From a virus: a DNA stretch of 43,223 nucleotides. The position numbers and the translations under genes were made by a program. Below, one piece after another: positions 4,827-40,805 of the stretch. The stretch is from the IMG/VR virus record IMGVR_UViG_3300020202_000125, positions 1 through 43,223 of that record; one strand, 5' to 3'. The number at the start of each line of letters is the position of its first letter. Positions within the stretch are counted from its first letter, which is position 1. Under the pieces are notes generated by a model. The model was given only the letters and a program-made list of their open reading frames with translations. It made no database searches and was not told the DNA's origin.

Positions 4827-4855
4827 TTGCGCATCATCACCAGTCGTGCTAATAA
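4827..4855 (+). promoter_or_regulatory. Early promoter 1 with shared operator motif
   Basis: TTGCGC (4827-4832), 17-base spacer, TAATAA (4850-4855) preceded by TGC (extended -10). The motif ATCATCACCA (4833-4842) directly follows the -35. The same arrangement recurs at 40777-40805 and, in a variant, at 37519. Predicted start near 4862, followed by GGAGGG and the GTG start at 4879. Drives the recombination/replication operon. Confidence 0.75.
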
Positions 4856-4878
4856 TAGGGTCACTCGGAGGGCGCCCA

Positions 4879-5790
4879 GTGTTCACCAAGGCAACCAAAA
4901 CCCAAGCCAAGCTGCGACTCGCCATCAAAGGCCCGTCCGGCAGCGGCAAGACCTTTTCGGCCCTGTCGATCGCCCAGCACCTGGGCAGTCGCATCGCGGT
5001 CATCGATACTGAGTACGGCAGTGCTTCCAAGTACGCTGGCCGCTTCAACTTCGACGTGTGCGAAATCCGCGACTCGTTCGAGGCCACGAAGCTGGTGGAC
5101 GCGATGGCCGCAGCGGCCGGCTATGACGTGGTGATCATCGATTCGCTGACCCACTTCTGGAACGGTACCGGCGGCATCCTCGAGCGGGTGACCGCCGAGT
5201 CCCTGCGCTTCAAGGGCAATTCGCACGCGGCCTGGGGTGTGGTGACGCCAATATATAAGTCGATCGTCCACGCCATCCTGAACGCCCCCAGCCACGTCAT
5301 TGTCTGCCTGCGCGCCAAGCAGGAGTACGTGCAGGAGAAGGACGAGCGCGGCAAGACGGTGATCAAGAAAGTCGGCATGGGCGCCGAGATCCGTGATGGC
5401 TTCGAGTACGAGATGGACAACGAAGGCATCCTCGACATGGAGCACAATTTCGTGGTGGGCAAGAACCGCTGCGAGGCCATCGACGGGAAGGTCTTCCACA
5501 GGCCCGGCAAGGAACTGGCCGAGATCCTCAAGGGATGGCTGTCGGAGGGCGCACCAGCGCCAGTCACAGCACCGGTCGCACAGCCAGCGGGCGCGCCCCC
5601 TGCGGCTGCTTCCGTCATCGCGGGAGCCGGCCCCGCGGCAACGCCGCCAGCCGATGCCCACCGCGCCGAGGCCCGCGCGCTGTACGCCAAGCTGCCGCGC
5701 GCCGAAGCGGAGGCTATCCGGCTGAAGCATGGCCAGGACTTCGCCGCGATGTGTGTCGATTACAGGGCGTGGCTGGAAGGGGTCGCGTGA
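4879..5790 (+). CDS. Sak4-like RecA-fold recombination ATPase, 303 aa
   Basis: Start is GTG 4879, six bases after GGAGGG; the in-frame ATG at 4846 lies inside the promoter. Walker A GPSGSGKT at residues 18-25 and Walker B DVVIIDS at 83-89, followed by LTHFW. The architecture is that of the Sak4 family (phage ATPases related to the RecA core that promote strand annealing/exchange with SSB). The C-terminal third has an Ala/Pro-rich linker (about 228-265) and a short helical end. It leads the operon that also holds an exonuclease and SSB, which fits a phage recombination set. Confidence 0.85.
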   Translation: MFTKATKTQAKLRLAIKGPSGSGKTFSALSIAQHLGSRIAVIDTEYGSASKYAGRFNFDVCEIRDSFEATKLVDAMAAAAGYDVVIIDSLTHFWNGTGGILERVTAESLRFKGNSHAAWGVVTPIYKSIVHAILNAPSHVIVCLRAKQEYVQEKDERGKTVIKKVGMGAEIRDGFEYEMDNEGILDMEHNFVVGKNRCEAIDGKVFHRPGKELAEILKGWLSEGAPAPVTAPVAQPAGAPPAAASVIAGAGPAATPPADAHRAEARALYAKLPRAEAEAIRLKHGQDFAAMCVDYRAWLEGVA

Positions 5791-5823
5791 CATGGGCTAC
5801 ATGGTTGAGCGGAGGGGCGACAC

Positions 5824-6195
5824 ATGACCATCGACTTCACCAAGCCCGTGCAAACGCGCGATGGACGGAAGGTGCGGATACTGTGCACGGATCGCCAAGG
5901 TGAAAAACCAGTTGTCGGCCTGGCTGCAGAGCGCGACGGCAGCGATTCCATTTTCGCATGGTCCGCAGACGGCAGGCACTTACATGGTTGTCCCAACCTT
6001 GACCTCGTCCAAGCGCCCGAGACGTGGGAAGTGACGGGGTGGGTGAATGTATATCAGGATGGCGAAGGGTCTCCGTCTTTCGGCTCCATATGGAACACGC
6101 GCCAGGACGCCGACGGCAGCTCATCTATCGACGGGGTACGCATCGCCTGTGTCCCGGTGACCCTACGCGGGGTGGTGGGTGAGGGGCTGGAATGA
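5824..6195 (+). CDS. Hypothetical protein, 123 aa
   Basis: ATG preceded by GGAGGGG. Begins MTIDFTKPVQTRDGRKVRIL, an opening common in small phage proteins of unknown function with a beta-rich fold. Ends RGVVGEGLE, encoded by a G-rich tract that also serves as ribosome site for the next gene (4-base overlap). Confidence 0.75.
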   Translation: MTIDFTKPVQTRDGRKVRILCTDRQGEKPVVGLAAERDGSDSIFAWSADGRHLHGCPNLDLVQAPETWEVTGWVNVYQDGEGSPSFGSIWNTRQDADGSSSIDGVRIACVPVTLRGVVGEGLE

Positions 6196-6500
6196 ACTGG
6201 ATTCCCTGCGCTGGGCGTCTGCCTGACATGCCTCATACCAGCGATGCCGGTCCAATAACGACGGCGCGTCGCTACAGCGATCCGGTAGTCATCATCGGGA
6301 AAAACGAAGATGATGGACAGTGGGCCTTGGTCGCGCGCTGCGGCATAAAGGACGAACCAGATTGGGGCAAGGCGCCGGAAGATACACCGTTTTGGTGCGA
6401 CGAGTTCGATCTGATCGCAATCCACGGCGAGAAAGATGCGCCCACGCATTGGATGCCGTTGCCGATTAACGACGTGACGGTGGAGGAGCAAAACTCATGA
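6192..6500 (+). CDS. DUF551-like protein, 102 aa
   Basis: Begins MNWIPCAGRLPDMP and ends with THWMPLPI, the start and end signature of the DUF551 family (W-P at the start, HWMPLP near the end), common in phage and prophage early regions; biochemical role unknown. ATGA overlaps on both sides place it in the recombination operon. Confidence 0.8.
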   Translation: MNWIPCAGRLPDMPHTSDAGPITTARRYSDPVVIIGKNEDDGQWALVARCGIKDEPDWGKAPEDTPFWCDEFDLIAIHGEKDAPTHWMPLPINDVTVEEQNS

Positions 6501-7297
6501 CCATCACCCTCGGCACGCCCGTAGGTCCGTTCGGAAAACTCCATGAGGACGAGGCCACCTACCGGTCGAACCCAGCCATCACGCGCTCAATCCTGGAGGA
6601 CTACCTGCGCAATCCTCGGCTCTGCCAGGGAATGCACATCACCGGCGAGTACCAGAAGCCCGACAGCGATTCCTTCCGCGTCGGCACCGCCGCGCATTGC
6701 CTCGTGTTGGAGCCGGACGAGTTCACGGCGCGCTACATCGTGCCGCCAAAGATGGACCGGCGCACGAAAGAGGGCAAAGAGGCATTCTCTGCATTCGGAC
6801 GCGAGCACGCCGGGAAAAAATTTCTCGACCAGGAGGAATTCGACCTGGTCCACCGCATGGCCGAGGCGGTTTCGCAGAATGCCTGCGCCCAGGACCTGCT
6901 GTGGGGCGCTGAGGTCGAGGTGGTCTACCGCCACAATGGCACCCCCCTCGCCACGCAATGCCGAGTTGATGCGGTCACACCTACGCACGTGGTCGACCTC
7001 AAGACCACGGAGTCACTGGCCAAGTTCAAGCGCTCGCTGTGGGATCTCGGCTATCACCGCCAAGCGGCGTGGTACCTCGAGCATGTCGATCCGCAGCTGC
7101 CGTTCATCTTCATCGCCGTTGAGAAGTCCGCCCCCTACGCCGTCGGCATCTTCCAGATTGAGTCGCGCGGACTCTCCATGGCACGCGATCAACTCAGCGA
7201 CGCCCTCGCTCGTCTTGCAGACAGCATCGCCACCAACCGCTGGGAACGTGATGCCGGGGTCATCGAAACCGTGAATGCTCCGCCATGGCTACCGTAG
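6497..7297 (+). CDS. PD-(D/E)XK exonuclease (RecE/ExoVIII-like), 266 aa
   Basis: Contains FRVGTAAH at 60-67, CRVDAV at 155-160, VVDLKTT at 165-171 and YHRQAAWY at 186-193. These are the ordered motifs of the putative ExoVIII/RecE-type nuclease family; the Asp of RVDA and the D-x-K of DLKT are the likely metal-binding core. It would resect double-stranded ends to leave 3' single strands for the Sak4-like protein and SSB encoded nearby. Overlaps the next gene by 13 bases. Confidence 0.85.
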   Translation: MTITLGTPVGPFGKLHEDEATYRSNPAITRSILEDYLRNPRLCQGMHITGEYQKPDSDSFRVGTAAHCLVLEPDEFTARYIVPPKMDRRTKEGKEAFSAFGREHAGKKFLDQEEFDLVHRMAEAVSQNACAQDLLWGAEVEVVYRHNGTPLATQCRVDAVTPTHVVDLKTTESLAKFKRSLWDLGYHRQAAWYLEHVDPQLPFIFIAVEKSAPYAVGIFQIESRGLSMARDQLSDALARLADSIATNRWERDAGVIETVNAPPWLP

Positions 7298-7530
7298 TCC
7301 CCACCACCATCCACACCGCGCACGGGTATAGCCTGTACTCGGACAGTGGTAAACCACGCGTGCGACGCGAGTGGATGCAGCGCGTCAACGGCATCCCAAC
7401 CAAGCACCACACCGAATTCGACCTCGTCCGTGACCACTTCGGTTCCGGCGCGAAGGCGCAGGATGCCTGGGACCAGCTGAGCCGGGCTTGGGACGAGTGG
7501 CGGACCTGGATCGAGGCGAACACGCGATGA
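7285..7530 (+). CDS. Hypothetical protein, 81 aa
   Basis: ATG lies within the end of the exonuclease gene. Basic N-terminal half and a tryptophan-rich C-terminal helix (DAWDQLSRAWDEWRTWIE). No known motif. Located between the exonuclease and the helicase, so a replication/recombination accessory role is possible but unsupported. Confidence 0.6.
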   Translation: MATVVPTTIHTAHGYSLYSDSGKPRVRREWMQRVNGIPTKHHTEFDLVRDHFGSGAKAQDAWDQLSRAWDEWRTWIEANTR

Positions 7531-7552
7531 CCGGCACCGCCTGCGACCTGAC

Positions 7553-9070
7553 GTGAGCGATCACACCCACAACCTGGAGATCGAAGCCAGCGTCCTGGCC
7601 ACGGTCGTCCACGCCCAGGACCCCAAGAAGGCCTGGGCCATAGTGGGCGAACACCTCCAGACCCCCCTCGCGTTCTACGGCCGCGACCACCAGTTGCTGG
7701 CCCTGGTGATCGGTGCCCAGTGGGCCGCCGGCGCAGACATCGACGCCACCTCGCTCCTCGCCGCCCTCAGCCAGGTATCGTTCGCCGACGCCATGCGTCA
7801 GCTCTCGAATGTTAACAATGGTGCTACTGTTACACTCGACCCTTTCCGCTCCCCCGACGACCCCCTCTCCCTGGTCATCGGACTGACCTCGGACATCCTC
7901 GTCGGCGTCACCCCCAGAGCGAGTTCGCCGGAAGCCCTGGGCCGACAGGCCAAGATCGTCGCGGACCACTACCGCCAGCGGCAGGTGATCGCCCTGCTGA
8001 CCAAGGCACTGGAGGGTCTCAACGCAGCCTCCGCCCGCACCAAGCTCGGCGAGATCGCCGACGGTATCTTTAACGGGCTCGCTAAGGTGGTTTCCGGGCG
8101 TTCTGGGGCACGATCCCTGCACGAGCACGGCTATGACGCCATCAAGGCGCACGACCGCGCCAGCGAGGCGGGAAACCGCCCCCTGCCGGTATGGCCACTG
8201 CCCACCCTCAATGACCTCTGCCCGTTCCGGGGCGGGGCCATGGTGGTGCTGGCCGGTTCACCGGGCTCGGGCAAGACCTCCCTGGCGCTCCAGGTCGCCA
8301 CCGAATCCGCCAAAGTCCTGGGCGGTCCCTGCGGTGTGGGGATCGTCTCCCGCGAGATGCCGGGCCTGGACCTGGCCCGCCTGGTGGTCTCCCGTCACCT
8401 GGGAGTACCGCGCAGCGACATCGAGAGGGGCCTGCTGCTGGGGTGGCAACGCGCCGAAGCCCTGGCCTACCTCGACCGGATCGGCCACGGCCAAGGCGTC
8501 GTCATCTACGACAACCTCGGGCCCTGCACCTCGCGCGACATCTGCGCCTGGGCCAGACAGCAGGTCCTCAGGACGGGCGGATCGTTCCGCCTGCTGGTGA
8601 TCGACCACCTCCAGCTCCTCGACGGCGCCTCGCCCAAGGCCTCCGAGTACGAGCGCATCAGCCAGGCCACCCGCGAACTGAAATGCGTGGCGCTCGAGCT
8701 GGACATCACCGTCCTGCTGCTGAGCCAGCTGAATCGCGCGGCCAAGAACACTGGTCAAGCGGCCAAGGGTTTTGGTCGTGCCGGCATGGAAGCCGGGCTC
8801 GGCGCCGACGACTTCGAGCTGAAGGACCTGCGCGGTAGCGGCACCATCGAGGCTGACGCCGACCAAGTCGTCTTCCTGTGCAACCTGCAGCCTGGCGCCG
8901 CGCAACCCAACGTCCGCATCAAGGTCGCCAAAAACCGCTGGGGAGCCCTTGGCTGTGTCGAATGCGTATTCGACAAGCCCAACGGTCAGGTTTACCGGGA
9001 AAAAATTTCACCACCGGGGTCCAACCGCATGGCCAGCGAGCCGTCGGAGGCCGAGGACCTCTTTACCTAG
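7553..9070 (+). CDS. DnaB-like replicative helicase, 505 aa
   Basis: GTG start at 7553. The N-terminal about 180 residues are helical, as in DnaB N-domains. Then Walker A GSPGSGKT (235-242), Walker B LLVIDHLQLLDG (347-358), LSQLNR, RGSGTIEADADQVVFL (the DnaB sensor/arginine-finger region) and AKNRWGALG. This is the full DnaB/RecA-like helicase order, at normal family length. It would unwind the fork using host polymerase, since no phage polymerase is seen. Followed after 9 bases by SSB. Confidence 0.9.
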   Translation: MSDHTHNLEIEASVLATVVHAQDPKKAWAIVGEHLQTPLAFYGRDHQLLALVIGAQWAAGADIDATSLLAALSQVSFADAMRQLSNVNNGATVTLDPFRSPDDPLSLVIGLTSDILVGVTPRASSPEALGRQAKIVADHYRQRQVIALLTKALEGLNAASARTKLGEIADGIFNGLAKVVSGRSGARSLHEHGYDAIKAHDRASEAGNRPLPVWPLPTLNDLCPFRGGAMVVLAGSPGSGKTSLALQVATESAKVLGGPCGVGIVSREMPGLDLARLVVSRHLGVPRSDIERGLLLGWQRAEALAYLDRIGHGQGVVIYDNLGPCTSRDICAWARQQVLRTGGSFRLLVIDHLQLLDGASPKASEYERISQATRELKCVALELDITVLLLSQLNRAAKNTGQAAKGFGRAGMEAGLGADDFELKDLRGSGTIEADADQVVFLCNLQPGAAQPNVRIKVAKNRWGALGCVECVFDKPNGQVYREKISPPGSNRMASEPSEAEDLFT

Positions 9071-9079
9071 GAGCATTGC

Positions 9080-9487
9080 ATGAACGTGAATCGCACCCTC
9101 TTGGCGGGGAACCTCACCCGCGACGTTGAATCGCGCGCCGTCGGCGACAAGACCGTCGCCAACTTCGGACTGGCCATCAATCACCGCTACAAGGGCAAGG
9201 ACGGAGAGGTCAAAGAGGAAGCCACCTTTGTCGACATCGAAGCCTGGGGCCGCACGGGCGAGCTCTGCGCCCAGTATCTCACCAAGGGCAGCGGCTGCTT
9301 CATCGAGGGGCGTCTGAAGCTCGACCAGTGGACTGACAAGGATGGCCAGAAGCGCTCGAAGCTGAAGGTCGTCGCCGACAGCGTCCAGTTCATGGGCCGC
9401 AAGGACGAGGCGCCCAAGGCCGCTACTGCGGCCGCATCGTCACAGCCCGTCCAGCAACCTGTCGCCGACGACGGCATCCCGTTCTAA
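9080..9487 (+). CDS. Single-stranded DNA-binding protein, 135 aa
   Basis: MNVNRTLLAGNLTRDVESRA, AWGRTGELCAQYLTKG and IEGRLKLDQW are the SSB OB-fold signature. An Ala/Gln-rich linker leads to the acidic tip DDGIPF, which in SSBs recruits partner proteins. SD AGGAG nine bases before the ATG. It completes the exonuclease/Sak4/SSB recombination set and supports the helicase. Confidence 0.95.
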   Translation: MNVNRTLLAGNLTRDVESRAVGDKTVANFGLAINHRYKGKDGEVKEEATFVDIEAWGRTGELCAQYLTKGSGCFIEGRLKLDQWTDKDGQKRSKLKVVADSVQFMGRKDEAPKAATAAASSQPVQQPVADDGIPF

Positions 9488-9490
9488 GCC

Positions 9491-9682
9491 ATGCCACTTC
9501 GCAACGACACCATGCAGCGGGTCTACGAGGTGGCGGATCGCCGCCGCCTCATGGCCCTGCACCGCCAGTACGGAACGGACATCATTAACCATCAGCGCTG
9601 GGCCCACCAAGCCCGTGCCAAACAACAGGCCGTCGAGCTCGAGTTGGACGAGCAACACCCTGGGTGGAGGGAGAAGTCGTGA
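9491..9682 (+). CDS. Small hypothetical protein, 63 aa
   Basis: ATG three bases after the ssb stop. Basic, helical (YEVADRRRLMALHRQYG), ending in a Gln/Glu-rich helix. No motif recognised. Overlaps the next gene (GTGA). Confidence 0.65.
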   Translation: MPLRNDTMQRVYEVADRRRLMALHRQYGTDIINHQRWAHQARAKQQAVELELDEQHPGWREKS

Positions 9683-9840
9683 ACAACGACGATGTGACCC
9701 TGGCGATCTTCTGCGCCATGGTCCCCTATTGGGAGAGGGCCGGACTCCACAATCGCAGGTGGCAGGTCGAGCAGTCCATCCAAATTGCAGCCGAATACCT
9801 GAAGATCCGCGAGGATCTTCGGTACAAGGCCAAGCCATGA
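9679..9840 (+). CDS. Small hypothetical protein, 53 aa
   Basis: GTG start overlapping the previous stop, with AGGGAG upstream. MNNDDVTLAIFCAMVPYWER followed by a helical end; no family recognised. Overlaps the next small gene by ATGA. Confidence 0.6.
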   Translation: MNNDDVTLAIFCAMVPYWERAGLHNRRWQVEQSIQIAAEYLKIREDLRYKAKP

Positions 9841-9941
9841 CCGCCACGCCAGACCCCGACATGCTCTGGGCCTACATCGCGCTCGCGGTCATCACCGTTT
9901 TGACCATGGTCGGGATGGTGGTGGGACGGTTCGGCCCATGA
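9837..9941 (+). CDS. Single-pass membrane miniprotein, 34 aa
   Basis: ATGA overlap at both ends. MTATPDPDMLWAYIALAVIT continues as one hydrophobic segment to about residue 28, with a short GRFGP tail. A predicted inner-membrane miniprotein; function unknown. Confidence 0.55.
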   Translation: MTATPDPDMLWAYIALAVITVLTMVGMVVGRFGP

Positions 9942-10129
9942 ACGACCAACCCACCGTCGCCGATCTCTGCCGACAGATCCATGACCTCAACCTCGCGCTG
10001 GCGGAATCGCAGGGTGCGCTCGCCCTGGCCGATGCCGAGGTCAAGCGCCTGAACCAGGAGGTCCTCCGGCTACAGAACGCCGCCGCCGTGCTCAGCCAGT
10101 ACTTCTACGACGTGAGGATCGAGCCATGA
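9938..10129 (+). CDS. Small coiled-coil protein, 63 aa
   Basis: MNDQPTVADLCRQIHDLNLA then heptad-like leucines (ALADAEVKRLNQEVLRLQNA) predict a coiled coil. Coupled by ATGA on both sides. Function unknown. Confidence 0.65.
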   Translation: MNDQPTVADLCRQIHDLNLALAESQGALALADAEVKRLNQEVLRLQNAAAVLSQYFYDVRIEP

Positions 10130-10347
10130 GGAAGCCAACGGCTACCAGGCTAGCCATGACACTAAAGGAATTCGTGACGTACATGGAGCTGAAGCAGCGC
10201 AATGACGAGTTTCATAACAGTAGCAGGCAACGCTCCCGGTACGGCATCCCGGATGATCCCGGATATCCCGACTATATTGAGCGCTCGGTTGAAGCCCAGC
10301 GCGCATTCGATGACTTCGTTGCCGAAGCGAAGGCGCGCGACCAATGA
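10126..10347 (+). CDS. Small hypothetical protein, 73 aa
   Basis: ATGA-coupled. MRKPTATRLAMTLKEFVTYM, then a polar middle and a helical end; no family recognised. An internal ATG at 10156 is possible but lacks a better SD. Confidence 0.6.
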   Translation: MRKPTATRLAMTLKEFVTYMELKQRNDEFHNSSRQRSRYGIPDDPGYPDYIERSVEAQRAFDDFVAEAKARDQ

Positions 10348-10520
10348 ACGACCCCATCCACCGCCTCATCAACCTGGCCAATCAGCTCGGATCGATCGGC
10401 ATGCTCGTCGGCGCCACCAAGGCGCTCCATGACCCGCGCTACACCAACCTCCTCCTGCAGTACGTGCGCGTCAAAGACGAGCTCGCGGCGATTGCGGCGG
10501 AGTTCGAGAGGGCGCCATGA
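10344..10520 (+). CDS. Small helical protein, 58 aa
   Basis: ATGA overlaps with both neighbours. MNDPIHRLINLANQLGSIGM followed by two short helices. No motif recognised; the overlaps support translation. Confidence 0.6.
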   Translation: MNDPIHRLINLANQLGSIGMLVGATKALHDPRYTNLLLQYVRVKDELAAIAAEFERAP

Positions 10521-11122
10521 GCATCCGCACCGCCATCCGTGATCACGGCAACATCATCGTCGGCATCACCGGCCGCCGCGGGTCTGGCAAGTCCACCTTC
10601 GCCGCCTCCATCGGGGGCTGGCGTATGGGCTTCGCCGATCCCATCCGCGCCGTCACCGAAGCCGTGTTCGGCTCCCAGTACCGCACCGCCGAGGAGAAGG
10701 CTGCCACCGATGCATACTGGCAGGAGCGCCTCGGCGACGACTGGTCAACCGGCCGCAAGATCCTCCAGCGCACCGGCACCGAGGTGTTCCGCGCCGGCGT
10801 CCACAAGGACATCTGGCTGTACGTCATGGAACGCCGCCTGCTCGAGCTGTGCAACCGACCGCCCATGCTGATCACGATCGACGACGTCCGCTTCGACAAC
10901 GAGGCCGAGTTCCTGCGCGACCTCGGCGGCACCATCGTGCGCGTGGTCAACACCAACCAGCCGCCGAACGACGACGACCACACCAGCGAAGCCGGAATCA
11001 GCGACGACCTGGTCAACGCCGAGTTCCGTTGCGCCACCAAAGGCGAATGCCAGTCGATCGCCAAGGCGTTCCTGTTCCTGCTGGAGAAGGCCAAGCCACT
11101 TCCGGCCGCGACTGCACCTTGA
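10517..11122 (+). CDS. Deoxynucleoside monophosphate kinase, 201 aa
   Basis: Walker A GITGRRGSGKST at residues 16-27; then IDDVRFDNEAEFLRDLGG and VNTNQPPNDDDHTSEAG, the pattern of T4 gp1-type dNMP kinases. These phosphorylate dNMPs to dNDPs for phage DNA synthesis, often from degraded host DNA. Length is typical for phage versions. The stop overlaps the -35 of a promoter for the next gene. Confidence 0.85.
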   Translation: MSIRTAIRDHGNIIVGITGRRGSGKSTFAASIGGWRMGFADPIRAVTEAVFGSQYRTAEEKAATDAYWQERLGDDWSTGRKILQRTGTEVFRAGVHKDIWLYVMERRLLELCNRPPMLITIDDVRFDNEAEFLRDLGGTIVRVVNTNQPPNDDDHTSEAGISDDLVNAEFRCATKGECQSIAKAFLFLLEKAKPLPAATAP

Positions 11123-11146
11123 CATCATTAGCAAACGTGGTACAGA
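11119..11146 (+). promoter_or_regulatory. Internal promoter for the RusA gene
   Basis: TTGACA (11119-11124), 16-base spacer ending TGG, TACAGA (11141-11146). This is the TTGACA-N13-TGN-TANNNN pattern seen elsewhere in the genome. The predicted start falls at 11152-11153, on the ATG of the next gene, which has no SD; this predicts a leaderless transcript. Confidence 0.6.
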
Positions 11147-11151
11147 TACCC

Positions 11152-11550
11152 ATGCACGAAGCCGTTGACCTTTTCGTCGCGATGAAGCCCGCTGCCAAGG
11201 CCCGCCCGCGGGTGACCAGGCGCGGGGTCTACATGCCGAAGGCGTACCAGGTCTGGAGAAAGACGTTCCAGGAACTGGCCAGGCCACAGTACCAGGGCGA
11301 GCCGTTCACGTGCCCGGTGTACCTCGCGGTCATCTTCTCCACCAAGACCGGAACGATGCGGCCGGACATCGACAATGCTGCCGGGGCCGTGCTCGATGCG
11401 CTGCAACCCTGGTTCATCAAGAATGATAGCCAGGTCCGCGAGCTGATCGCGGGCGTTGTCATCGACGGCAAGTTTCCGGGGCTCTGCCGTCCGTCCGGAA
11501 TCGCCGTGCTCCTGCAGACGGCATCGGTCCTTGAAGAACTGGCGCACTAA
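11152..11550 (+). CDS. RusA-like Holliday junction resolvase, 132 aa
   Basis: KARPRVTRRG near residues 16-25, PKAYQVWR, then MRPDIDNAAGAVLDALQ. Asp72, Asp74 and Asp92 (in KNDSQV) match the three-aspartate active site of RusA, which cuts four-way junctions symmetrically. Length fits the family. It would resolve recombination or replication intermediates before packaging. Start chosen at ATG 11152; an in-frame GTG at 11137 lies inside the promoter. Neither has an SD. Confidence 0.85.
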   Translation: MHEAVDLFVAMKPAAKARPRVTRRGVYMPKAYQVWRKTFQELARPQYQGEPFTCPVYLAVIFSTKTGTMRPDIDNAAGAVLDALQPWFIKNDSQVRELIAGVVIDGKFPGLCRPSGIAVLLQTASVLEELAH

Positions 11551-11825
11551 TGAACACCACAGCCATTGACGAAGTCCTGTATGACGATGCGTACGTGCCG
11601 CTCCTGGAGATCGTAGAGCGACTGTGCGATCGCATCGGCGGTAACCCACTCGTCGGTGCACCGCAATGGAACTCATCCGTCTACCACGAGTGGTGCCGGT
11701 TCGCTGAACGCGTGTGGATCGAGGGCTACAATCCGTCGGCGGTGTTCGTGGCACTGCGCGATGGTGGTTACCCCAAGCGGACGATCAACGGCATCGAGTG
11801 CTGGAGCAGGAGGACTGGCCGATGA
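11550..11825 (+). CDS. Hypothetical protein, 91 aa
   Basis: ATG overlaps the last base of the RusA stop. MNTTAIDEVLYDDAYVPLLE then ERLCDRIGGN and a C-terminal RDGGYPKRTINGIECWSR. Helical; no family recognised. ATGA overlap with the phosphoesterase gene. Confidence 0.65.
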   Translation: MNTTAIDEVLYDDAYVPLLEIVERLCDRIGGNPLVGAPQWNSSVYHEWCRFAERVWIEGYNPSAVFVALRDGGYPKRTINGIECWSRRTGR

Positions 11826-12517
11826 GCACGGTGCTCGCCATACCCGATCTCCACATGCCATTCCAGCACCGTGATGCGTTCGAGTTCCTGGCGCAGGTCA
11901 AGCGCAAGTACAGGCCGGACATCATCATCAACCTGGGTGACGAAGTCGATCATCACGCGCTGTCGGATCACGACCACGACGTGGATGGCCATTCCGCCGG
12001 CGACGAGTTCCAGATGGCGCTCGAGGAGATGAGCCATCTGTACGCGATGTTCCCGTCATGCGGAGTCGCGGTGAGCAATCACGGTCTTCGCCCATTCCGC
12101 AGAGCATACCGCTACGGGCTACCAAAAGCGTTCCTGCGGGATTATCACGAGTTCATGCAGGCCCCACCAGGGTGGCGGTGGGAGGACTCATTCACCGTTG
12201 ACGGGGTCGTCTACGAGCACGGCATGGGCATGTCCGGCCCTGGCGGAGCGCTCAAGGCTGCGCTGGCCAATATGGCGAGCACGGTCATCGGGCACCTGCA
12301 CAGCTGGGCCGGGATCGCATTCTCTGCGAACCAGAAGTGTCTGGTGTGGGGCATGAACGCTGGGTGCCTGCTGGATCGTGATCGCTATGCCTTCGCGTAC
12401 GGTCGCATCCACAAGTCGAAGCCGATCCTGGGCTGTGGCATCATCCGCGATGCGGTGCCGACGTATATACCGATGATACTCAACAGGTCCGGCAGGTGGA
12501 CCGGTGGGGGTTTGTGA
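11822..12517 (+). CDS. Calcineurin-like metallophosphoesterase, 231 aa
   Basis: IPDLHMP (D9, H11), NLGDEVDHH (GDEVD 39-43), SNHG (85-88, in place of the usual GNHD/E) and GHLHS (157-161) give the ordered metal ligands of the metallophosphoesterase superfamily. The substrate cannot be read from sequence; phage members act on nucleotides or DNA ends. The Asn-His of the third motif is kept. Starts by ATGA overlap. Confidence 0.8.
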   Translation: MSTVLAIPDLHMPFQHRDAFEFLAQVKRKYRPDIIINLGDEVDHHALSDHDHDVDGHSAGDEFQMALEEMSHLYAMFPSCGVAVSNHGLRPFRRAYRYGLPKAFLRDYHEFMQAPPGWRWEDSFTVDGVVYEHGMGMSGPGGALKAALANMASTVIGHLHSWAGIAFSANQKCLVWGMNAGCLLDRDRYAFAYGRIHKSKPILGCGIIRDAVPTYIPMILNRSGRWTGGGL

Positions 12518-12768
12518 TGTGGCCATTCAGTCCGCGACTGGTTCCCGAGATCGTGACCGGTCGACGCAACATCATGTACGTCGCTGTCGGTGACGCTGGT
12601 CATCAAACCATTGTCCAGGACGCGCAGATGCCGGGTATTGTCGAGGTGTACATTCCGCGCGATCCCAAGCCGGTGCTGGTGGTGCTGTCGGCCGAGGAGG
12701 TAAGTCACCTGCTCAAAGCGATGGCGCGGTATGTGGACCTGAAACAGACCGAGGAGTGCTCGACGTGA
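12517..12768 (+). CDS. Hypothetical protein, 83 aa
   Basis: ATG shares its first base with the previous TGA; the in-frame ATG at 12496 is inside the phosphoesterase gene. MWPFSPRLVPEIVTGRRNIM then beta-rich sequence and a helix at LSAEEVSHLLKAMARYV. No known motif. Confidence 0.65.
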   Translation: MWPFSPRLVPEIVTGRRNIMYVAVGDAGHQTIVQDAQMPGIVEVYIPRDPKPVLVVLSAEEVSHLLKAMARYVDLKQTEECST

Positions 12769-13058
12769 AACGCAAGCGAGCCATAAGGCGCGGCGACCTG
12801 GTCGAGGTCACCCTGCTCGACCACTACAGCGCCGCCGACGGCTGGACGGATCTGCAGGATCTCGAGCGGATCGAGCCGCTGCGCTGCAAGACCGTCGGAT
12901 ATGTCGTTGCTGCCGACAAGACGCACCTGCGGCTGGCGTCGACCATCGCCGGCATCGATCAGGAGGCACAGCAGGGATCCCTGGCGATGACGGTCATCAG
13001 GGCCTGTATTACAGGTGTGGTCGTCCTGAGGCGCGGGCGTGGCCCATCCGGAAACTAG
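12765..13058 (+). CDS. Hypothetical protein, 97 aa
   Basis: GTG in a GTGA overlap. MKRKRAIRRGDLVEVTLLDH suggests a small beta-barrel-like protein (GDLVEV; CKTVGYVVAADKTHLRLAST); similar small phage proteins are of unknown role. It is the last gene clearly coupled into the replication operon. Confidence 0.65.
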   Translation: MKRKRAIRRGDLVEVTLLDHYSAADGWTDLQDLERIEPLRCKTVGYVVAADKTHLRLASTIAGIDQEAQQGSLAMTVIRACITGVVVLRRGRGPSGN

Positions 13059-26736: not shown

Positions 26737-27801
26737 CTAGATCGAGCCCTGCTTAGCGAGCTCGAAAATGAAGGAGTTGTATGCCGACCGGTCGTTGATG
26801 TCGCCGCCCTGCTGCTTGAACAGTGCGATCGGATCGACTTTCCCGGTGCTCTTGGGATCGTGCGCTACCGCCGCGGCAGCGTTCCCCCTGAGCAGGCGTT
26901 CTTTTTCCTCGGCGGACTTCTTGGCCGTGTCAGCAGATGAGAAGGTTTTGCGGTAGTACGCGAGTTCGACGTCGCGCTGGATGATGTTCCAGTCCTCACC
27001 CCGCTGCAGCCGCTGCGCTATCTGTTGCTCCTGGCCCCTCCACATGTGCTGGTTCTTCTCGAACCAATCATTGACCTCTTTCGAGGCCATGGTCGCTTCC
27101 TGGAATTCCTGCGCCGTGCCCTGATGCCACTTGCTGATGCGCTCCTGGAAGAACTTGTCGAACTTCTCCTCCAGGAACCCGTCCGGGTCGGTGAACATCT
27201 CGCGCTGGCGCGAGGTCGTATGCTCGCGGTACTCCTGGAGGACGCGTTGCGCCTCCTCGGGGAGCGCCCGCAGGGCATACTTCTGGGCGATTGCCTTCTC
27301 GTTCGGGTCCTCGATGCCAGCCAGCTGCTGCTGGATGATCTCGGCCGTCTGGAGATAGCGCTTGAACTTCTCGTGCTCGGGGTGCTTCCGGTGCCACATG
27401 GGCACCTGCGCCTGCTTGCTCCTGCGGAAGTCGTCCAGCTCGCGGGCGTCGATGTCCCGGAACTGCTCGACCTGCCGCCGGAGCTTCTCATGTTCCTGCT
27501 GGAGCCTGAGACGCTCTTGATGTTCGCGCTGGTAGGCCGCCTGGTTGTCTCTGAGCCGTTTCTCGATGTCGATCGACGGCTGCGCGGTCGGCTGCTGCTT
27601 CTCACCTGATGTCAATGAGCCGGTTGGTCCTTCGTCCGGCTGGGAAGCCACCGCTGTGGCGCCAGAAGTTCCGGCCGAGGCACCGCTATCCGCCGAGTTC
27701 GGCGCAGGCTGGGAGTCCGCAGAGCCAGCTGCACCGGAGTCCGGTGTCGGATCGGTTTGTGAACTGATGTTAACATCATTTTCGGTATTGTCAAGCCCCA
27801 T
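26737..27801 (-). CDS. Scaffolding protein, 354 aa
   Basis: Acidic Ser/Ala/Pro-rich N-terminus (about 1-70), then long Gln/Glu/Arg-rich helices (EHQERLRLQQEHEKLRRQVE) predicting a coiled coil, and a C-terminus ending LFKQQGGDINDRSAYNSFIF. Between portal and major capsid genes, as expected for a scaffold that guides procapsid assembly and is then removed. SD AGGAG nine bases before the ATG. Confidence 0.75.
   Translation of the reverse strand: MGLDNTENDVNISSQTDPTPDSGAAGSADSQPAPNSADSGASAGTSGATAVASQPDEGPTGSLTSGEKQQPTAQPSIDIEKRLRDNQAAYQREHQERLRLQQEHEKLRRQVEQFRDIDARELDDFRRSKQAQVPMWHRKHPEHEKFKRYLQTAEIIQQQLAGIEDPNEKAIAQKYALRALPEEAQRVLQEYREHTTSRQREMFTDPDGFLEEKFDKFFQERISKWHQGTAQEFQEATMASKEVNDWFEKNQHMWRGQEQQIAQRLQRGEDWNIIQRDVELAYYRKTFSSADTAKKSAEEKERLLRGNAAAAVAHDPKSTGKVDPIALFKQQGGDINDRSAYNSFIFELAKQGSI
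27767..27794 (-). promoter_or_regulatory. Internal promoter candidate in the scaffold gene
   Basis: Minus strand TTGACA (27789-27794), 16-base spacer ending TGT, TAACAT (27767-27772): same pattern and same -10 as the tail-fibre promoter at 33072. It lies over codons 3-10 of the scaffold gene, so it could boost capsid expression or be a coincidence; no start codon is at the predicted start (27760). Confidence 0.35.
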
Positions 27802-27874: not shown

Positions 27875-27902
27875 TCTGTAGCAGTTATGCTAATGTTCTA
27901 GA
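27875..27902 (-). promoter_or_regulatory. Promoter candidate before the scaffold gene
   Basis: In the 96-bp gap, minus strand: TGC-TACAGA extended -10 (27875-27883) with a poor -35 (TCTAGA, 27897-27902). Would give a leader of about 70 bases with an SD. Just upstream, the palindrome AGACCTTC-TC-GAAGGTCT (27900-27917) covers the end of the zinc-ribbon gene and could terminate or pause transcription. Confidence 0.35.
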
Positions 27903-31120: not shown

Positions 31121-31569
31121 GGTTGTGTCATTTCTATCAAATAATATTCGAGGGTGATGGTCTCTCCGGCATTGGCGAGCGTCGCTGTAAAGTCGATGGT
31201 CACTGCGCTTGTCGTATCAATAGCAGACGTGGATATTGCACCGGCAGAAACGCCGACACCGGTAGTGTTGTTCACGCTGAAGAAGGTCTGCGAACTGGCG
31301 CCGCGCTGGAATACATGGACATGCCGCAGCAGGCTGGCGGTGGTCGTTACGGTGAGATTGAGCGGGTTTGCGCTGCCGAATTTCACCTTGAGCGTCTTAT
31401 TGTTGGAGCTGTTGGTGTAGCTCCACAGGCAGGTGATCCGAATCATTCCACCAACCTTGAGCGTATTTGCCGCCAGCGAGTACGTCACCAATGACGTCTC
31501 ATTCGTATTGCCCGTGTGGCTGAGCGCCGATGCGCCGGCCGCCAATATCTCTGTTGGCCTGAAGCTCAT
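31117..31569 (-). CDS. Beta-rich virion protein, 150 aa
   Basis: ATG at 31569 overlaps the tail-fibre stop. MSFRPTEILAAGASALSHTG, then Ser/Thr/Val-rich beta sequence with MIRITCLWSYTNSSNNKTLK and ending TITLEYYLIEM, like small C-terminal or head-fibre beta domains. Probably partners the tail fibre encoded just upstream. Confidence 0.6.
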   Translation of the reverse strand: MSFRPTEILAAGASALSHTGNTNETSLVTYSLAANTLKVGGMIRITCLWSYTNSSNNKTLKVKFGSANPLNLTVTTTASLLRHVHVFQRGASSQTFFSVNNTTGVGVSAGAISTSAIDTTSAVTIDFTATLANAGETITLEYYLIEMTQP

Positions 31570-33065
31570 AGCCTGGCCCACCCATAGGTGCCGTGGTACT
31601 GCAGCGTCGCGCTTTCCAGGCTGGCCGTGATCGCTAGGTCGGCAGCAGCGCCATCGATTGAGTTGCCATTACGGCCGATTGTCAGCGTGTTGGCAGCTGC
31701 CGTCTTCTTGAAGTGATAGATCGTCCCCGCGGGAGGCGCGGCCGGCAGCGTGCAGGTGATGCTGCCTCCGGAGGTGTCGGCCAGAATGGTGTAATCCGTG
31801 GCAAGCACCGTATAGGGGCTGTCGCCGGTCACCTTCGTGACGATGTTCTGGATGAAACCGGCAGCGGCTATCTGCTTGGCGAAGCCGGCTCCGCCGGAGC
31901 AAATAAGCGCACCCGTCGTGGTCGAGGTGGAGGCGGTGGTGCTGGCGAATGTCGCCGCGCCGTCGCTTGCAGCTATCGTGACCTTGGTAGAGCCATTGAT
32001 CGCAAACAGCAGATTGCTCGCATTACCGGTCGATACTGTGAAGGTGCCGCTGCTCGGACCGTAGATGCTTCCGGAATTGTAGAATCCACCGGTGCCGCCG
32101 CTGCCGATGTTGAACGCCCCATCAGCCGGCGCTATAAATGCAGCACCCGAGGCAGACAGGGTGCAGTTTCCTGCGGAGACGACGATGCGGCCCTCGGTGG
32201 TGAGACCACCGGTGCCCTTCAGGGTGATCAGGCCATTGGCGCCGTTCGCGACGATGATGCGGTCCGCGACGCCCGCCTCTGTGAAATTGGCCCGCGTATT
32301 CGAGCTGTCATACTGCCAGCGGTACGCCTTGGAGTCACCAGAACTGTACAGGTGCAGACTCGCACCCGTGGCGCCGCCAAGCCGCAGGTCGCCGCCAACA
32401 CGTACGGTCTCCGAGCCGGTTGGGTCAGTGCCGGCAACAAAGGATGTGCTGGCCGTCAGCGTGGTAAATGCACCGGTGTTCGGCGTGCCGCTGCCGATCG
32501 TTCCCGGCGCTGCCCAGGTGGCGCCGAGCAGAAGCGACGCGTTGAGGTTCGGGCAGGCGGTGGTGCTCGTGGCGGTGAACGGCGCCGTGCCGGTGGCCAC
32601 CGTCGAAGTGTAGCCGCCCGGTGTGGTCATCGACGCGGCCGACGTATCGGTGGCGGTGACCGTAGTGGCGCGCACGGTGGTCGCGGTGGTGGCGCCGATC
32701 GTGGTGTTGTTGATCGTCCCACCGGTGATCGCCACGGACGCCGGCAACTGGCAGTGCCCCAGGACCCAGGCCGTCCCCGTGCAGGTGATCAGCACCACGT
32801 CGCCCGCATTGGAAATCGCGTACGTGGCAGCCCCGTTGATCTGCTCGGAGCCGTCACCGTCCAGCGTCAGGGTGCCGGAAACCACCCGCACCCAGAACGA
32901 GAAGCCGGCCTTCGCCGACGCCACCGTCGGGAAGGTCAGCGTGAACGTGCCCGTGCACTCGATCAGCTTACCGCGATCGGCCGTGGTGACGGTATAGCCG
33001 CTCGACTTGGCGAGATAGCCTGACCCAATCCCCAACGTCAGTGGGGTGCGTATCTCGTCCAGCAC
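31566..33065 (-). CDS. Tail fibre / spike-like protein, 499 aa
   Basis: GTG start. Repetitive Thr/Gly/Ala-rich beta sequence: GTFTLTFPTVASAKAGFSFW, GGTINNTTIGATTATTVRAT, GGLTTEGRIVVSAGNCTLSA, with imperfect repeats throughout, typical of fibre shafts. No enzymatic domain or intramolecular chaperone seen. A promoter at 33072-33099 puts the predicted start on the GTG, so the mRNA may be leaderless. Confidence 0.7.
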   Translation of the reverse strand: MLDEIRTPLTLGIGSGYLAKSSGYTVTTADRGKLIECTGTFTLTFPTVASAKAGFSFWVRVVSGTLTLDGDGSEQINGAATYAISNAGDVVLITCTGTAWVLGHCQLPASVAITGGTINNTTIGATTATTVRATTVTATDTSAASMTTPGGYTSTVATGTAPFTATSTTACPNLNASLLLGATWAAPGTIGSGTPNTGAFTTLTASTSFVAGTDPTGSETVRVGGDLRLGGATGASLHLYSSGDSKAYRWQYDSSNTRANFTEAGVADRIIVANGANGLITLKGTGGLTTEGRIVVSAGNCTLSASGAAFIAPADGAFNIGSGGTGGFYNSGSIYGPSSGTFTVSTGNASNLLFAINGSTKVTIAASDGAATFASTTASTSTTTGALICSGGAGFAKQIAAAGFIQNIVTKVTGDSPYTVLATDYTILADTSGGSITCTLPAAPPAGTIYHFKKTAAANTLTIGRNGNSIDGAAADLAITASLESATLQYHGTYGWARL

Positions 33066-33071
33066 AGCCTA

Positions 33072-33099
33072 ATGTTAGCACATGTTAGCCTAATGTCAA
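33072..33099 (-). promoter_or_regulatory. Tail-fibre promoter with repeated GCTAAYAT motifs
   Basis: Minus strand TTGACA (33094-33099), 16-base spacer ending TGC, TAACAT (33072-33077); the seventh base after the -10 is the G of the GTG start at 33065. The 60-bp gap also carries GCTAACAT (twice) and GCTAATGT, a possible operator cluster. Confidence 0.65.
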
Positions 33100-33125
33100 G
33101 GGCCAACATTAGCGGTTCTGCTAAC

Positions 33126-35017: not shown

Positions 35018-35588
35018 GATCATCCTCCTTGATGGCCTCCGCCATCTCCATCTTCGCCAGATCCAGGTCCGACAAGCGTCCAACCTTCAGCCGCTCCAGC
35101 TCCATCTTCTCGTCGTGCTCGCGACGGTCCTCGACCAGATTGGCCGCCGCGCCCAGCAGGGCGGACATGTTCTTGGTGTACGTCAACGCGTCCTTGCGAG
35201 CTTCCTTCAGGATCGTCTCCATCGCCGACAGGTGCCCGTCCGCGATGCGCTCGTAATGCGCCAGGTTGCTCAGTGCCTCGGCGCGGTCCTCGCTGCGCAG
35301 TGACGGGTCCTCGACAATCGAGCGCGCCAACTCCGCCGTCCGCATGGCGGCCAAGTACTTGTCGCGGCGCTCGAGCAGCAGCTGGATCTGCGGATGGTCC
35401 GACCACGAGACCTCCGTCAGCTTGCAGGATCTGCCCTGGTAGTCCTGCACGGTCTTCAGCAGATGCATGGTGTTCAGCCGCTGCGCGTAACGCCGCTGAA
35501 CCTTGAAGTCCTTGGCGATATCCAGGACCATGCGCTTGGCGAGCCGCGACGGCGCGACATCGACGACCGCAGGGGTCTGGTCGTTCAA
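34998..35588 (-). CDS. Probable terminase small subunit, 196 aa
   Basis: Helical protein directly upstream of the large-subunit gene. RLAKRMVLDIAKDFKVQRRY could be a DNA-binding N-terminal helical region; the middle and C-terminal parts (KNMSALLGAAANLVEDRREH) fit an oligomerising coiled coil. Position and size match TerS, which recognises the packaging site; no clear family motif. Confidence 0.55.
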   Translation of the reverse strand: MNDQTPAVVDVAPSRLAKRMVLDIAKDFKVQRRYAQRLNTMHLLKTVQDYQGRSCKLTEVSWSDHPQIQLLLERRDKYLAAMRTAELARSIVEDPSLRSEDRAEALSNLAHYERIADGHLSAMETILKEARKDALTYTKNMSALLGAAANLVEDRREHDEKMELERLKVGRLSDLDLAKMEMAEAIKEDDHDASES

Positions 35589-35842
35589 GCCGACGCCTCA
35601 GCCAGCGCCAGGTCGACATCCGGCTCGTAGTCGACCACCTCCACCAGGTCCAGCTCCGAGACCCAGTCAGGCCGGGCGGACCACTTGCCCTCCAGGGTGT
35701 ACCAATGCTCGTCCTCGGTGCCGTCCGGCAGGCGGAAAGCCGCCAGGACAGGGTGCCCCGAATCATCCCGGGGGTTGATGGTCATCCGCGTGACGGGATA
35801 CCCGCGACGCGTCTCGTAGGGCTTGGAAAGGTCTACCGGCAT
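35585..35842 (-). CDS. Hypothetical protein, 85 aa
   Basis: ATG 35842 chosen because the promoter at 35851-35878 ends just before it; the longer frame to 35878 would include the -35. MPVDLSKPYETRRGYPVTRM then DEHWYTLEGKWSARPDW; acidic C-terminus. This kind of small beta protein is common in phages, role unknown. The leader would be about two bases. Confidence 0.6.
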   Translation of the reverse strand: MPVDLSKPYETRRGYPVTRMTINPRDDSGHPVLAAFRLPDGTEDEHWYTLEGKWSARPDWVSELDLVEVVDYEPDVDLALAEASA

Positions 35843-35850
35843 GTTACCAC

Positions 35851-35878
35851 ATGATAACATAATTGACGGCAATGTCAA
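35851..35878 (-). promoter_or_regulatory. Promoter before the terminase cluster
   Basis: Minus strand TTGACA (35873-35878), 16-base spacer ending TGT, TATCAT (35851-35856). Predicted start near 35844, two bases ahead of the ATG at 35842. A GCTAATGA-type motif lies just upstream (35884-35893), as near the tail-fibre promoter. Confidence 0.6.
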
Positions 35879-35886
35879 CAGTCTTG

Positions 35887-36144
35887 CTAATGATCAGTCA
35901 GTGCCCTACGCAGGGCGTCCACTGCCGGGTCATGCAGCCCCAGGGCGCTCTCCAGCGGCAGCCCCAGGGTATCCGCCACCTCCTCGATGGGCCATCCATC
36001 GAAGTAGTGCATGCGCAACAGTAAGCGCTGCATCTCTGAGAGATCGCCAATAGCCTCGACCAGGCGCTGGTTGGTCTCGATCACGATCAGGTCGTCTAAA
36101 AGATCGTCGACAGCCACTCGGCCAGGACCTTGAAGACCCACCAC
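35887..36144 (-). CDS. Sigma-70 region 4-like protein, about 85 aa
   Basis: LSEMQRLLLRMHYFDGWPIE followed by EVADTLGLPLESALGL and ALRRALTDH matches the region 4 pattern of sigma factors (YFDG, EEVA, LG, final helix), but no region 2 exists and the recognition helix lacks the usual basic residues. GTG start; several in-frame GTGs leave the exact start open. It may adjust host RNA polymerase at -35 elements, or be an anti-sigma mimic. Confidence 0.6.
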   Translation of the reverse strand: MVGLQGPGRVAVDDLLDDLIVIETNQRLVEAIGDLSEMQRLLLRMHYFDGWPIEEVADTLGLPLESALGLHDPAVDALRRALTDH

Positions 36145-36197: not shown

Positions 36198-36199
36198 GA

Positions 36200-36564: not shown

Positions 36565-36773
36565 GCCACATACCCTTTGATGCCGTCGCCGGACAGCGCC
36601 AGGCGAGCGATCATGTTCTGCAGCAGCGACAGGCCATACCCGTACCCCAGCGACCGCAGCGTCTCCTCCATCAGCTCACGCGCGTGGAGCATCAGGGCCT
36701 CGTCGTCGCCGACGTAGACCGCGATCAGTGAGCGCATCTCCAGGGCAAATTCGTCCGGGGTGATGGCGGTCAT
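36561..36773 (-). CDS. Small hypothetical protein, 70 aa
   Basis: ATGA overlap with the preceding gene. MTAITPDEFALEMRSLIAVY then HARELMEETLRSLGYGYG; helical. Ends GIKGYVA. No family recognised. Confidence 0.65.
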   Translation of the reverse strand: MTAITPDEFALEMRSLIAVYVGDDEALMLHARELMEETLRSLGYGYGLSLLQNMIARLALSGDGIKGYVA

Positions 36774-36988
36774 TTCACCGCCTCCATAAAGCAGTCCAGG
36801 ATGCGGTTGATGGTCTCGACGTCCATCATGGCGTGGTCGAAATCGACCTCCCGGCGGTCAATGCGGCACAGGAAGGCGTCATACAGACAGCTGGAGCGCT
36901 TTTGGGACAGGTAGGTGACCGCATTCGCGGCCAAGAGCGCGTCCATGGAGATCGTGATATCGTTCGGTAAGCTGGTGACGTCTGGCAT
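36770..36988 (-). CDS. First late-operon protein, 72 aa
   Basis: MPDVTSLPNDITISMDALLA then SQKRSSCLYDAFLCRIDRRE; helical, small, no family recognised. There is no SD: the -10 of the promoter at 36994-37022 is five bases from the ATG, so the transcript should begin at or within the start codon. Confidence 0.65.
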   Translation of the reverse strand: MPDVTSLPNDITISMDALLAANAVTYLSQKRSSCLYDAFLCRIDRREVDFDHAMMDVETINRILDCFMEAVK

Positions 36989-36993
36989 GCGTC

Positions 36994-37022
36994 AGTATAG
37001 TTAGCAAACTTGCTCATGTCAA
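36994..37022 (-). promoter_or_regulatory. Main late promoter
   Basis: Minus strand TTGACA (37017-37022), 17-base spacer containing TTTGCTAAC, TATACT (36994-36999): close to the sigma-70 consensus. First of the 23.6-kb minus-strand late block; five bases separate the -10 from the ATG. Confidence 0.75.
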
Positions 37023-37518: not shown

Positions 37519-37546
37519 TTGCATCATCACCAATCTCGCTCATATT
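37519..37546 (+). promoter_or_regulatory. Early promoter 2 with shared operator motif
   Basis: TTGC followed at once by ATCATCACCA (37523-37532), then CATATT about 16 bases after the -35. A second near-copy, TCATCACCAC, lies at 37551-37560. AGGAG (37563-37567) precedes the ATG at 37573. The -10 is weaker than in the other two early promoters. Confidence 0.55.
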
Positions 37547-37572
37547 GCACTCATCACCACACAGGAGCATCC

Positions 37573-37773
37573 ATGGACCCCATCGCCACCATCATCTACA
37601 TCATCGGCGCCCGTGGGCAGGGCCGGCAAGAGGCCGTTACGGACCTACAGGGCTATTACGCGTTCGGTGGCACGCGCCCTCGCGCCGCTGACGTGCGCGC
37701 CGAGTACCAGCGCACCCACTCGCGCCCAGCGTCGCCCGATGCGGATCGCTGGATCAAGCGGCTCTCTGCCTGA
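37573..37773 (+). CDS. Small hypothetical protein, 66 aa
   Basis: ATG five bases after AGGAG; upstream in-frame codons lie in the promoter. MDPIATIIYIIGARGQGRQE then a basic tail. No family recognised. First gene of the 37.5-39.5 kb early block. Confidence 0.65.
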   Translation: MDPIATIIYIIGARGQGRQEAVTDLQGYYAFGGTRPRAADVRAEYQRTHSRPASPDADRWIKRLSA

Positions 37774-38192: not shown

Positions 38193-38194
38193 CC

Positions 38195-39160: not shown

Positions 39161-39225
39161 TATGCAATTGATTCTGCCACTCCACGATTTACATCAAACC
39201 GGCCTACGGGCCATAGGAGCTACCC

Positions 39226-39504: not shown

Positions 39505-39574
39505 ACCGCCCGCCCCGCGTGACGTCCGGCGGGTAAACCGGACGACCCACTAGCGGCAACTCCGCTCCACGAGC

Positions 39575-39608
39575 AACCCCAGCCTTACCCGCTGGGGTTC
39601 TTCGTTCC
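39575..39608 (+). terminator. Terminator of the 37.5-39.5 kb operon
   Basis: Perfect 9-bp stem AACCCCAGC / GCTGGGGTT (39575-39583, 39591-39599), 7-base loop, followed by CTTCGTTCC, a broken T-rich tail. Likely intrinsic terminator on the plus strand, 70 bases after the last gene. Confidence 0.7.
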
Positions 39609-39868: not shown

Positions 39869-40074
39869 TGCTCCACCAAGACCACCGCCAACCGGGCCGC
39901 GAGCTCCGGCGGAACGCTTCCGGCCCCGACAAGAACCCGAAAGGACCCGGGGTCAATCTCCCCCTCCTCGATCATGGAAGCAAGGTTGTCCAACTGCTGC
40001 AGGCTCAGCGATACCCGGGTTTCGACCTTCCAGGTCCGTTCATTCCCATCACCCCGGATCTCGGTCACTTTCAC
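39865..40074 (-). CDS. Small hypothetical protein, 69 aa
   Basis: Start placed at GTG 40074, five bases after AAAGGAG. MKVTEIRGDGNERTWKVETR then SLSLQQLDNLASMIEEGEID. First gene of a two-gene minus operon with a leader of about 90 bases from the promoter at 40170-40197. Unknown function; oriented away from the RNA gene. Confidence 0.6.
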   Translation of the reverse strand: MKVTEIRGDGNERTWKVETRVSLSLQQLDNLASMIEEGEIDPGSFRVLVGAGSVPPELAARLAVVLVEQ

Positions 40075-40169
40075 GATGACTCCTTTATGGTTCAAAACGT
40101 TGCGGAAACGGCGGCTTGCATGGGCACAGCAAGCACACCAACCTCAAAGCCTCGGACTCATGCAGGAAG

Positions 40170-40197
40170 CATGTACCACGATTACCAACAATGTCAA
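40170..40197 (-). promoter_or_regulatory. Divergent promoter, minus side
   Basis: TTGACA (40192-40197), 16-base spacer ending TGG, TACATG (40170-40175). Eight bases separate its -35 from the plus-strand -35 at 40206, making an inverted pair TGTCAA-8-TTGACA. Serves the two minus genes ending at 39608. Confidence 0.6.
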
Positions 40198-40205
40198 CCT
40201 TACGC

Positions 40206-40233
40206 TTGACATTATAACCGAACTTGCTACAAT
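40206..40233 (+). promoter_or_regulatory. Divergent promoter, plus side (structured RNA)
   Basis: TTGACA (40206-40211), 16-base spacer ending TGC, TACAAT (40228-40233): a near-perfect promoter with extended -10. Predicted start near 40240. No SD or gene follows for about 570 bases; what follows is the helix-rich region. Confidence 0.8.
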
Positions 40234-40239
40234 TGACTC

Positions 40240-40756
40240 CGCGTACTGTCGCGCCCACAGGCGACGGGGGGCCCGGAAGCGATACCGGGGTACCAACACA
40301 GGACTACAGGCCCGCATACCCTGGGCCGGCCAACGGTTCTTTGCTGAGAGTGTGGCAAGCCGGGAAACCCATGGCCGCCATCGCTCGCGAGTGATAGCCA
40401 GCCGCTAGGCAGACCACGGTCCCGTGGCTGCCGGTATGCGCCGAGTGCTGGCGAACTGAACTCGGTCCTCAGCAAGGAGCTGTTGCACATACTCTGGATG
40501 GTAGGGTTGGGCCTCTCGACAAGAGTCCTTTCCCGGCTTCCCTCGCCGAGGTCATGCCCTAGCGGCGCGTACCGGCACGAAGCCCAACCTCGCCTACCAG
40601 ACCCCCGGGTTCCATCCGGGTCGCATGAGCCATAGACCCTCGCCGGGAGGGAATGACCAAAGGGGTCGGGTTTCGGAATAGACAAGCCCTCCGGGGGGGC
40701 TCGCTTCGCTCGCCGGGGGGAAGCATTCAAGGATACCTTGAATGCGGTGTCTATAA
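40240..40756 (+). ncRNA. Large structured non-coding RNA candidate, about 515 nt
   Basis: Follows a strong promoter and has no plausible gene. Perfect or near-perfect helices, in order: GTCGC/GCGAC (40248, 40261); CCCGG/CCGGG (40272, 40285); GGCCC/GGGCC (40309, 40323); ATCGCT/AGTGAT (40380-40395, CGCG loop); GGCAG-a-CCACG/CGTGGCTGCC (40408-40432); CCGAGT/ACTCGG (40441, 40460); long-range GGTAGGGTTGGGC with GCCCAAC and CCTACC (40500-40512 with 40582-40598) enclosing CTCT/AGAG and CGGC/GCCG; CCCGG/CCGGG (40604, 40616); CCCTC/GAGGG (40637, 40647); GACC/GGTC (40655, 40664); and ATAGACA/TGTCTAT (40678, 40748) enclosing CCCTCCGG/CCGGGGGG and the 10-bp GCATTCAAGG/CCTTGAATGC. I see no tRNA, tmRNA or RNase P signature. 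Large phage RNAs such as GOLLD or ROOL are comparable in size; identity with them is not shown. Confidence 0.7.
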
Positions 40757-40776
40757 CACACCAACGCATTTTCTAC

Positions 40777-40805
40777 TTGCGTATCATCACCACGTGTGCT
40801 AATAA
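40777..40805 (+). promoter_or_regulatory. Early promoter 3 with shared operator motif
   Basis: TTGCGT (40777-40782), ATCATCACCA (40783-40792), 17-base spacer ending TGC, TAATAA (40800-40805). Nearly identical to the promoter at 4827. GGAG (40815-40818) precedes the ATG at 40825. Starts the operon that runs through the terminal repeat to 3422. Confidence 0.75.

Follow-up and report, generated by a model that had tools for sequence, protein, structure and literature searches.

An 18-bp dyad recurring at early and late promoters of a poorly known phage is a probable operator of one repressor

Eight strong copies of an 18-bp dyad lie at predicted promoters of both the early and the late operons of the virus described here, and we give a probability of roughly 0.6 to the reading that these dyads are the genome-wide operator of one dimeric helix-turn-helix (HTH) repressor, with the XRE product of 4391-4765 as the leading candidate. 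That the sites form an operator shared by one regulator is strongly supported, and the HTH protein is a plausible binder of them. Because at least eight promoters, early and late, carry the dyad, a single DNA-binding protein probably keeps the entire virus switched off. From sequence we infer that the sites are bound and mediate repression, and which protein does so. The window, that is, the whole stretch of DNA that was analysed, is the entire IMG/VR record IMGVR_UViG_3300020202_000125 (43,223 bp). Early and late are assigned from gene content, the early operons carrying replication and recombination genes on the plus strand and the late ones head, packaging and tail genes on the minus strand. 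The original prediction was of a three-operator regulon under one repressor; the shared operator stands, but the set has grown to eight strong sites, four of them late and on the minus strand, plus a few weaker ones.

The 10-mer ATCATCACCA from which that prediction was drawn has only three exact copies in the window, both strands counted (4833-4842, 37523-37532 and 40783-40792), each preceded by TTGC (at 4827, 37519 and 40777) as had been claimed and each in a gene-free stretch. Its placement between -35 and -10 holds at 4827 and 40777 but fails at 37519, where ATCATCACCA begins 2 bp earlier relative to TTGC and overlaps the -35 hexamer. A gene led by a Shine-Dalgarno sequence does follow every copy (GTG 4879, ATG 37573 and ATG 40825), the last of these being the start of merely a 22-aa ORF. 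The two sites described as having a -10 context in common, 4827 and 40777, do share TTGCnnATCATCACCAnnnGTGCTAATAA (0 mismatches, found nowhere else in the record within 3 mismatches), but the TGCTAAT of that context belongs to the dyad and is not a separate element. The second partial copy that had been reported is also present, as CTCATCACCA, at 37550-37559 rather than 37551-37560; since it lacks a second arm and sits between the -10 and the ribosome-binding site, it is probably due to chance. The 10-mer alone was rejected as the recognition unit, TTGCnnATCATCACCA being frequent in other, unrelated viral contigs (at least 119 stretches), where the second arm does not follow it.

The full element is an 18-bp dyad with the consensus ATTAGCA-N4-TGCTAAT, each arm having the form ATYASCA, and the 10-mer covers only the left arm. 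TGCTAAT comes after the 10-mer at sites 1 and 3, giving the imperfect dyad ATCACCA-N4-TGCTAAT. The arm centres are 10 bp apart (about one helical turn), all 16 arms have A at position 4 and C at position 6, and the early sites have in common the arm sub-type ATCACCA, which is absent from the late sites. A version with longer arms, ATCATCAC-N5-GTGCTAAT, was set aside as it fits sites 1 and 3 only, whereas the N4 dyad fits all eight. With up to two mismatches, TTAGCAN4TGCTAA is observed at 8 places against 0.35 expected, and 7 of these lie outside genes in a genome of which only 10% is non-coding; the reversed TTAGCA-N4-TGCTAA pattern had no match in a scan of the window.

A de novo palindromic motif search of about 5 kb of intergenic DNA, given no pattern but with the number of sites preset at eight by the analyst, returned 4836, 40786, 37526, 11127, 27877, 33108, 35874 and 37000, and the information content of this eight-site motif was 20.9 bits compared with 15.8-16.4 in shuffled sequence. 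The intergenic regions were taken from the gene calls of a simple script, later scoring covered the whole genome, and the GGGGTC repeat at the record ends was masked, unmasked runs being dominated by it. With early regions set as 1-13,058 and 37,300 to the end and the late region as 13,059-37,300, a matrix learned from the early regions alone placed the four late sites at ranks 5-8 genome-wide, right behind its own four training sites. The late-only matrix placed the early sites at ranks 5, 8, 9 and 10 genome-wide, with the intergenic site 3964 and site 7811, within the DnaB-like gene, interposed among them. Each of the eight sites was ranked first when left out of its own matrix, no site in 40 shuffled genomes reached the score attained by all eight, and column-permuted matrices yielded at most one.

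All eight sites are found at predicted promoters, outside genes or at gene edges, most of them between -35 and -10 and the others against -35. On the plus strand, operator 1 (ATCACCAGTCGTGCTAAT, 4836-4853) is in promoter 4827-4855 (TTGCGC-17-TAATAA), upstream of the Sak4-like ATPase gene 4879-5790; operator 2 (ATCACCAATCTCGCTCAT, 37526-37543) is in promoter 37519-37546, upstream of gene 37573-37773; operator 3 (ATCACCACGTGTGCTAAT, 40786-40803) is in promoter 40777-40805 (TTGCGT-17-TAATAA), upstream of a small-gene operon from 40825; and operator 4 (ATTAGCAAACGTGGTACA, 11127-11144) is in promoter 11119-11146 (TTGACA-16-TACAGA), upstream of the RusA gene 11152-11550. Downstream plus-strand genes include RusA and the Sak4-like ATPase operon with its DUF3799, DnaB-like helicase and SSB genes. 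On the minus strand, operator 5 (27877-27894, plus-strand letters TGTAGCAGTTATGCTAAT) belongs to the weak promoter 27902-27875, with gene 26737-27801 and the major head protein gene 25625-26728 downstream; operator 6 (ATTAGCGGTTCTGCTAAC, 33108-33125) is just upstream of the -35 of promoter 33099-33072, before gene 31566-33065, and half-site repeats (GTTAGC, AGCCTAATGT) fill 33066-33092 close by; operator 7 (GTCAACAGTCTTGCTAAT, 35874-35891) overlaps the -35 of promoter 35878-35851, followed by gene 35585-35842 and the terminase-containing operon; and operator 8 (GTTAGCAAACTTGCTCAT, 37000-37017) occupies the spacer of promoter 37022-36994 (TTGACA-17-TATACT), before gene 36770-36988. The minus-strand sites precede the major head protein operon, the terminase-containing operon and an operon with a sigma region 4 gene. 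Weaker candidate operators are ATAACCGAACTTGCTACA (40214-40231, plus strand), in promoter 40206-40233 (TTGACA-16-TACAAT), and the intergenic TGTAGCAGAACCGATAAT (3964-3981, plus strand). The genome has ten TTGACA hexamers, four of which (11119, 33099, 35878 and 37022) have a strong site in or beside the spacer and a further two (40206 and 40197) weaker sites.

The HTH gene said to diverge from the first copy is a real gene: 4391-4765 on the minus strand encodes an XRE-type HTH protein of 124 aa, with Pfam HTH_31 (E 2.5e-8) and HTH_3 both above cut-offs and a PHROG assignment to transcriptional regulators. Its AlphaFold model (single-sequence input) has six helices at pLDDT 72, and Cro/CI-type DNA-binding domains predominate among its structure matches, which are weak (none at E < 0.001). 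No other classical repressor-type gene was detected, and this one has a site in its own upstream region, operator 1 lying between it and the plus-strand gene at 4879 and overlapping the candidate -35 of its divergent promoter. The window shows three features expected of a phage XRE/Cro-CI-type regulon, namely an XRE-type HTH protein, promoter-overlapping dyads and an operator in the divergent region. The XRE protein would bind the dyads and repress the whole lytic programme, acting either in timing or as an immunity repressor of the prophage type; the arm spacing, about one helical turn, is that expected for an HTH dimer, and a protein bound between -35 and -10 or against -35 would exclude RNA polymerase. 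Owing to the position of operator 1 over its candidate -35, the protein may also control its own promoter (autoregulation). Among the annotated genes of the window, neither an integrase nor any other mark of lysogeny was recognised. The only other regulator-like gene detected, 35887-36117 on the minus strand, encodes a 76-aa protein consisting of sigma-70 region 4 only (Pfam Sigma70_r4_2, E 9e-8), lies in the same late minus-strand gene cluster as operator 8 and is a possible second candidate regulator, for the late genes.

The main rival, which we consider unlikely, is that host LexA, the SOS repressor, reads the operator in place of or alongside a phage repressor, as in Bacillus phage GIL01, where early P1 and late P3 are repressed by host LexA together with phage gp7 (PMC6182141). 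The two systems would be alike in that one repressor, here putative, acts directly on early and late promoters (PMC6182141), and the Xanthomonadales LexA box TTAGTArwawTACTAA resembles the dyad in arm length, N4 spacing and outer bases (TTAG...CTAA), with one base per arm different (PMC2248561). At that base, however, 16 of 16 arms have C where the box has T (position 5 of TTAGTA), a comparison with the Xanthomonadales box, which may not be that of the host, and TTAGTA-N4-TACTAA has no match within two mismatches in the window. Unlike GIL01, the phage has its own XRE gene beside operator 1, its box is one invariant base per arm off known LexA boxes, and no phage-encoded LexA was found among the genes of the window. 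We rate a little lower the stricter proposal that nearly all early and late promoters are under the direct control of a host SOS-type LexA reading TTAGCA-N4-TGCTAA rather than of the phage HTH protein; if this were true, DNA damage would release early and late operons together with no dedicated phage repressor. The likeness to the LexA box allows a direct test of host versus phage control.

Equally doubtful is a reading of the dyads as nothing but a promoter type, in which an extended -10 (TGnTAATAA, TGnTACAAT) and a conserved spacer would be recognised by host sigma or by phage sigma region 4, with no operator at all. The right arm TGCTA(A/C) doubles as an extended -10 in several promoters, coinciding with TGn and the start of the -10 at 4827, 40777, 11119, 27902 and 40206, and the phage does have a sigma region 4 gene. 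A sigma-70 consensus scan detected no promoter at 4827, 37519 or 40777, which, if they are promoters, rely on the extended -10. As one arm is the extended -10 in some promoters, the promoter accounts for part of the constraint on the sequence. However, the sites at 33108, 35874 and 37000 are off the -10 register (in two cases upstream of the -35 or over it) and still keep both arms, so promoter constraint alone is insufficient to account for the dyad, and neither the left arm nor the dyad symmetry is a promoter element.

More improbable again is that the bound protein activates transcription or switches it from early to late, a role that, for instance, the HTH protein might fill by acting in both directions or in partnership with the sigma region 4 protein. 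Operators 6 and 7, upstream of or over the -35, are in a position open to an activator, and the restriction of the ATCACCA arm sub-type to early sites would permit graded timing, but the majority of sites occupy the spacer between -35 and -10, where repressors classically bind. It is scarcely credible that the 10-mer was picked out post hoc and has no function, as the commonness of TTGCnnATCATCACCA alone in unrelated viral contigs might suggest, given the early/late cross-validation and the shuffle tests.

No close relative was found when the HTH, terminase, portal and major head proteins and the DNA of the window were searched against phages, plasmids, viral contigs and genome contigs, with not every protein run against every collection. 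Only distant relatives were recovered (Sak4 at 43-49% identity, portal at 24-29%), and no similar operator set was seen at the loci of these Sak4 and portal relatives. The viral contigs retrieved for containing TTGACAN3TTAGCAN4TGCTA are AT-rich and unrelated, with many of the matches inside genes. In two related viral contigs (L211:150-220 and L234:8400-8460), two TTAGCATTTTTGCTAA-type dyads flank the -35 at a hicAB-like operon. The dyad is therefore not restricted to a single regulator, and these contigs suggest that it is read by other HTH proteins as well.

The operators of lambda CI/Cro and of P1 C1 overlap the -35 and -10 of promoters; those of P1 are scattered over the genome and asymmetric, and those of lambda are clustered at two early promoters with other spacing. 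The sites described here likewise lie over -35 and -10, but as single dyads and at both early and late promoters. Many well-known repressors hit early promoters, with late genes silenced only indirectly, and direct control of late operons is a less common design. As in the L5-type system of Cluster A mycobacteriophages, one repressor, here putative, would have many sites across a phage genome; in contrast to the stoperators of that system, which are asymmetric and monomer-bound, many of them stopping elongation within transcription units (PMC9283540), the present sites are dyads at promoters and are not of the stoperator type. The genome-wide operator family thus represents a familiar type of regulation in a phage that is itself poorly known, and a three-copy motif has become a cross-validated regulon map for a phage without a close relative in the collections searched.

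Some further features of the record were observed. At four operator-bearing promoters (11119-11154, 33065-33099, 35840-35878 and 36986-37022) the start codon follows the -10 by just 5-8 bases and the genes concerned show no Shine-Dalgarno sequence, so the transcripts from 11119, 33099, 35878 and 37022 may be leaderless. At 40206-40770 a near-consensus promoter (TTGACA-16-TACAAT) is followed by about 500 bases with no convincing gene call; this stretch has no Rfam or phage match and its predicted RNA folds better than shuffles (z -2.9), making it a candidate large non-coding RNA. Additionally, the two ends of the record (43137-43223 and 1-55) carry the same GGGGTC/GTGGTC-type hexamer repeat, and the assembly may therefore have broken there, in which case the genome may close through the repeat.
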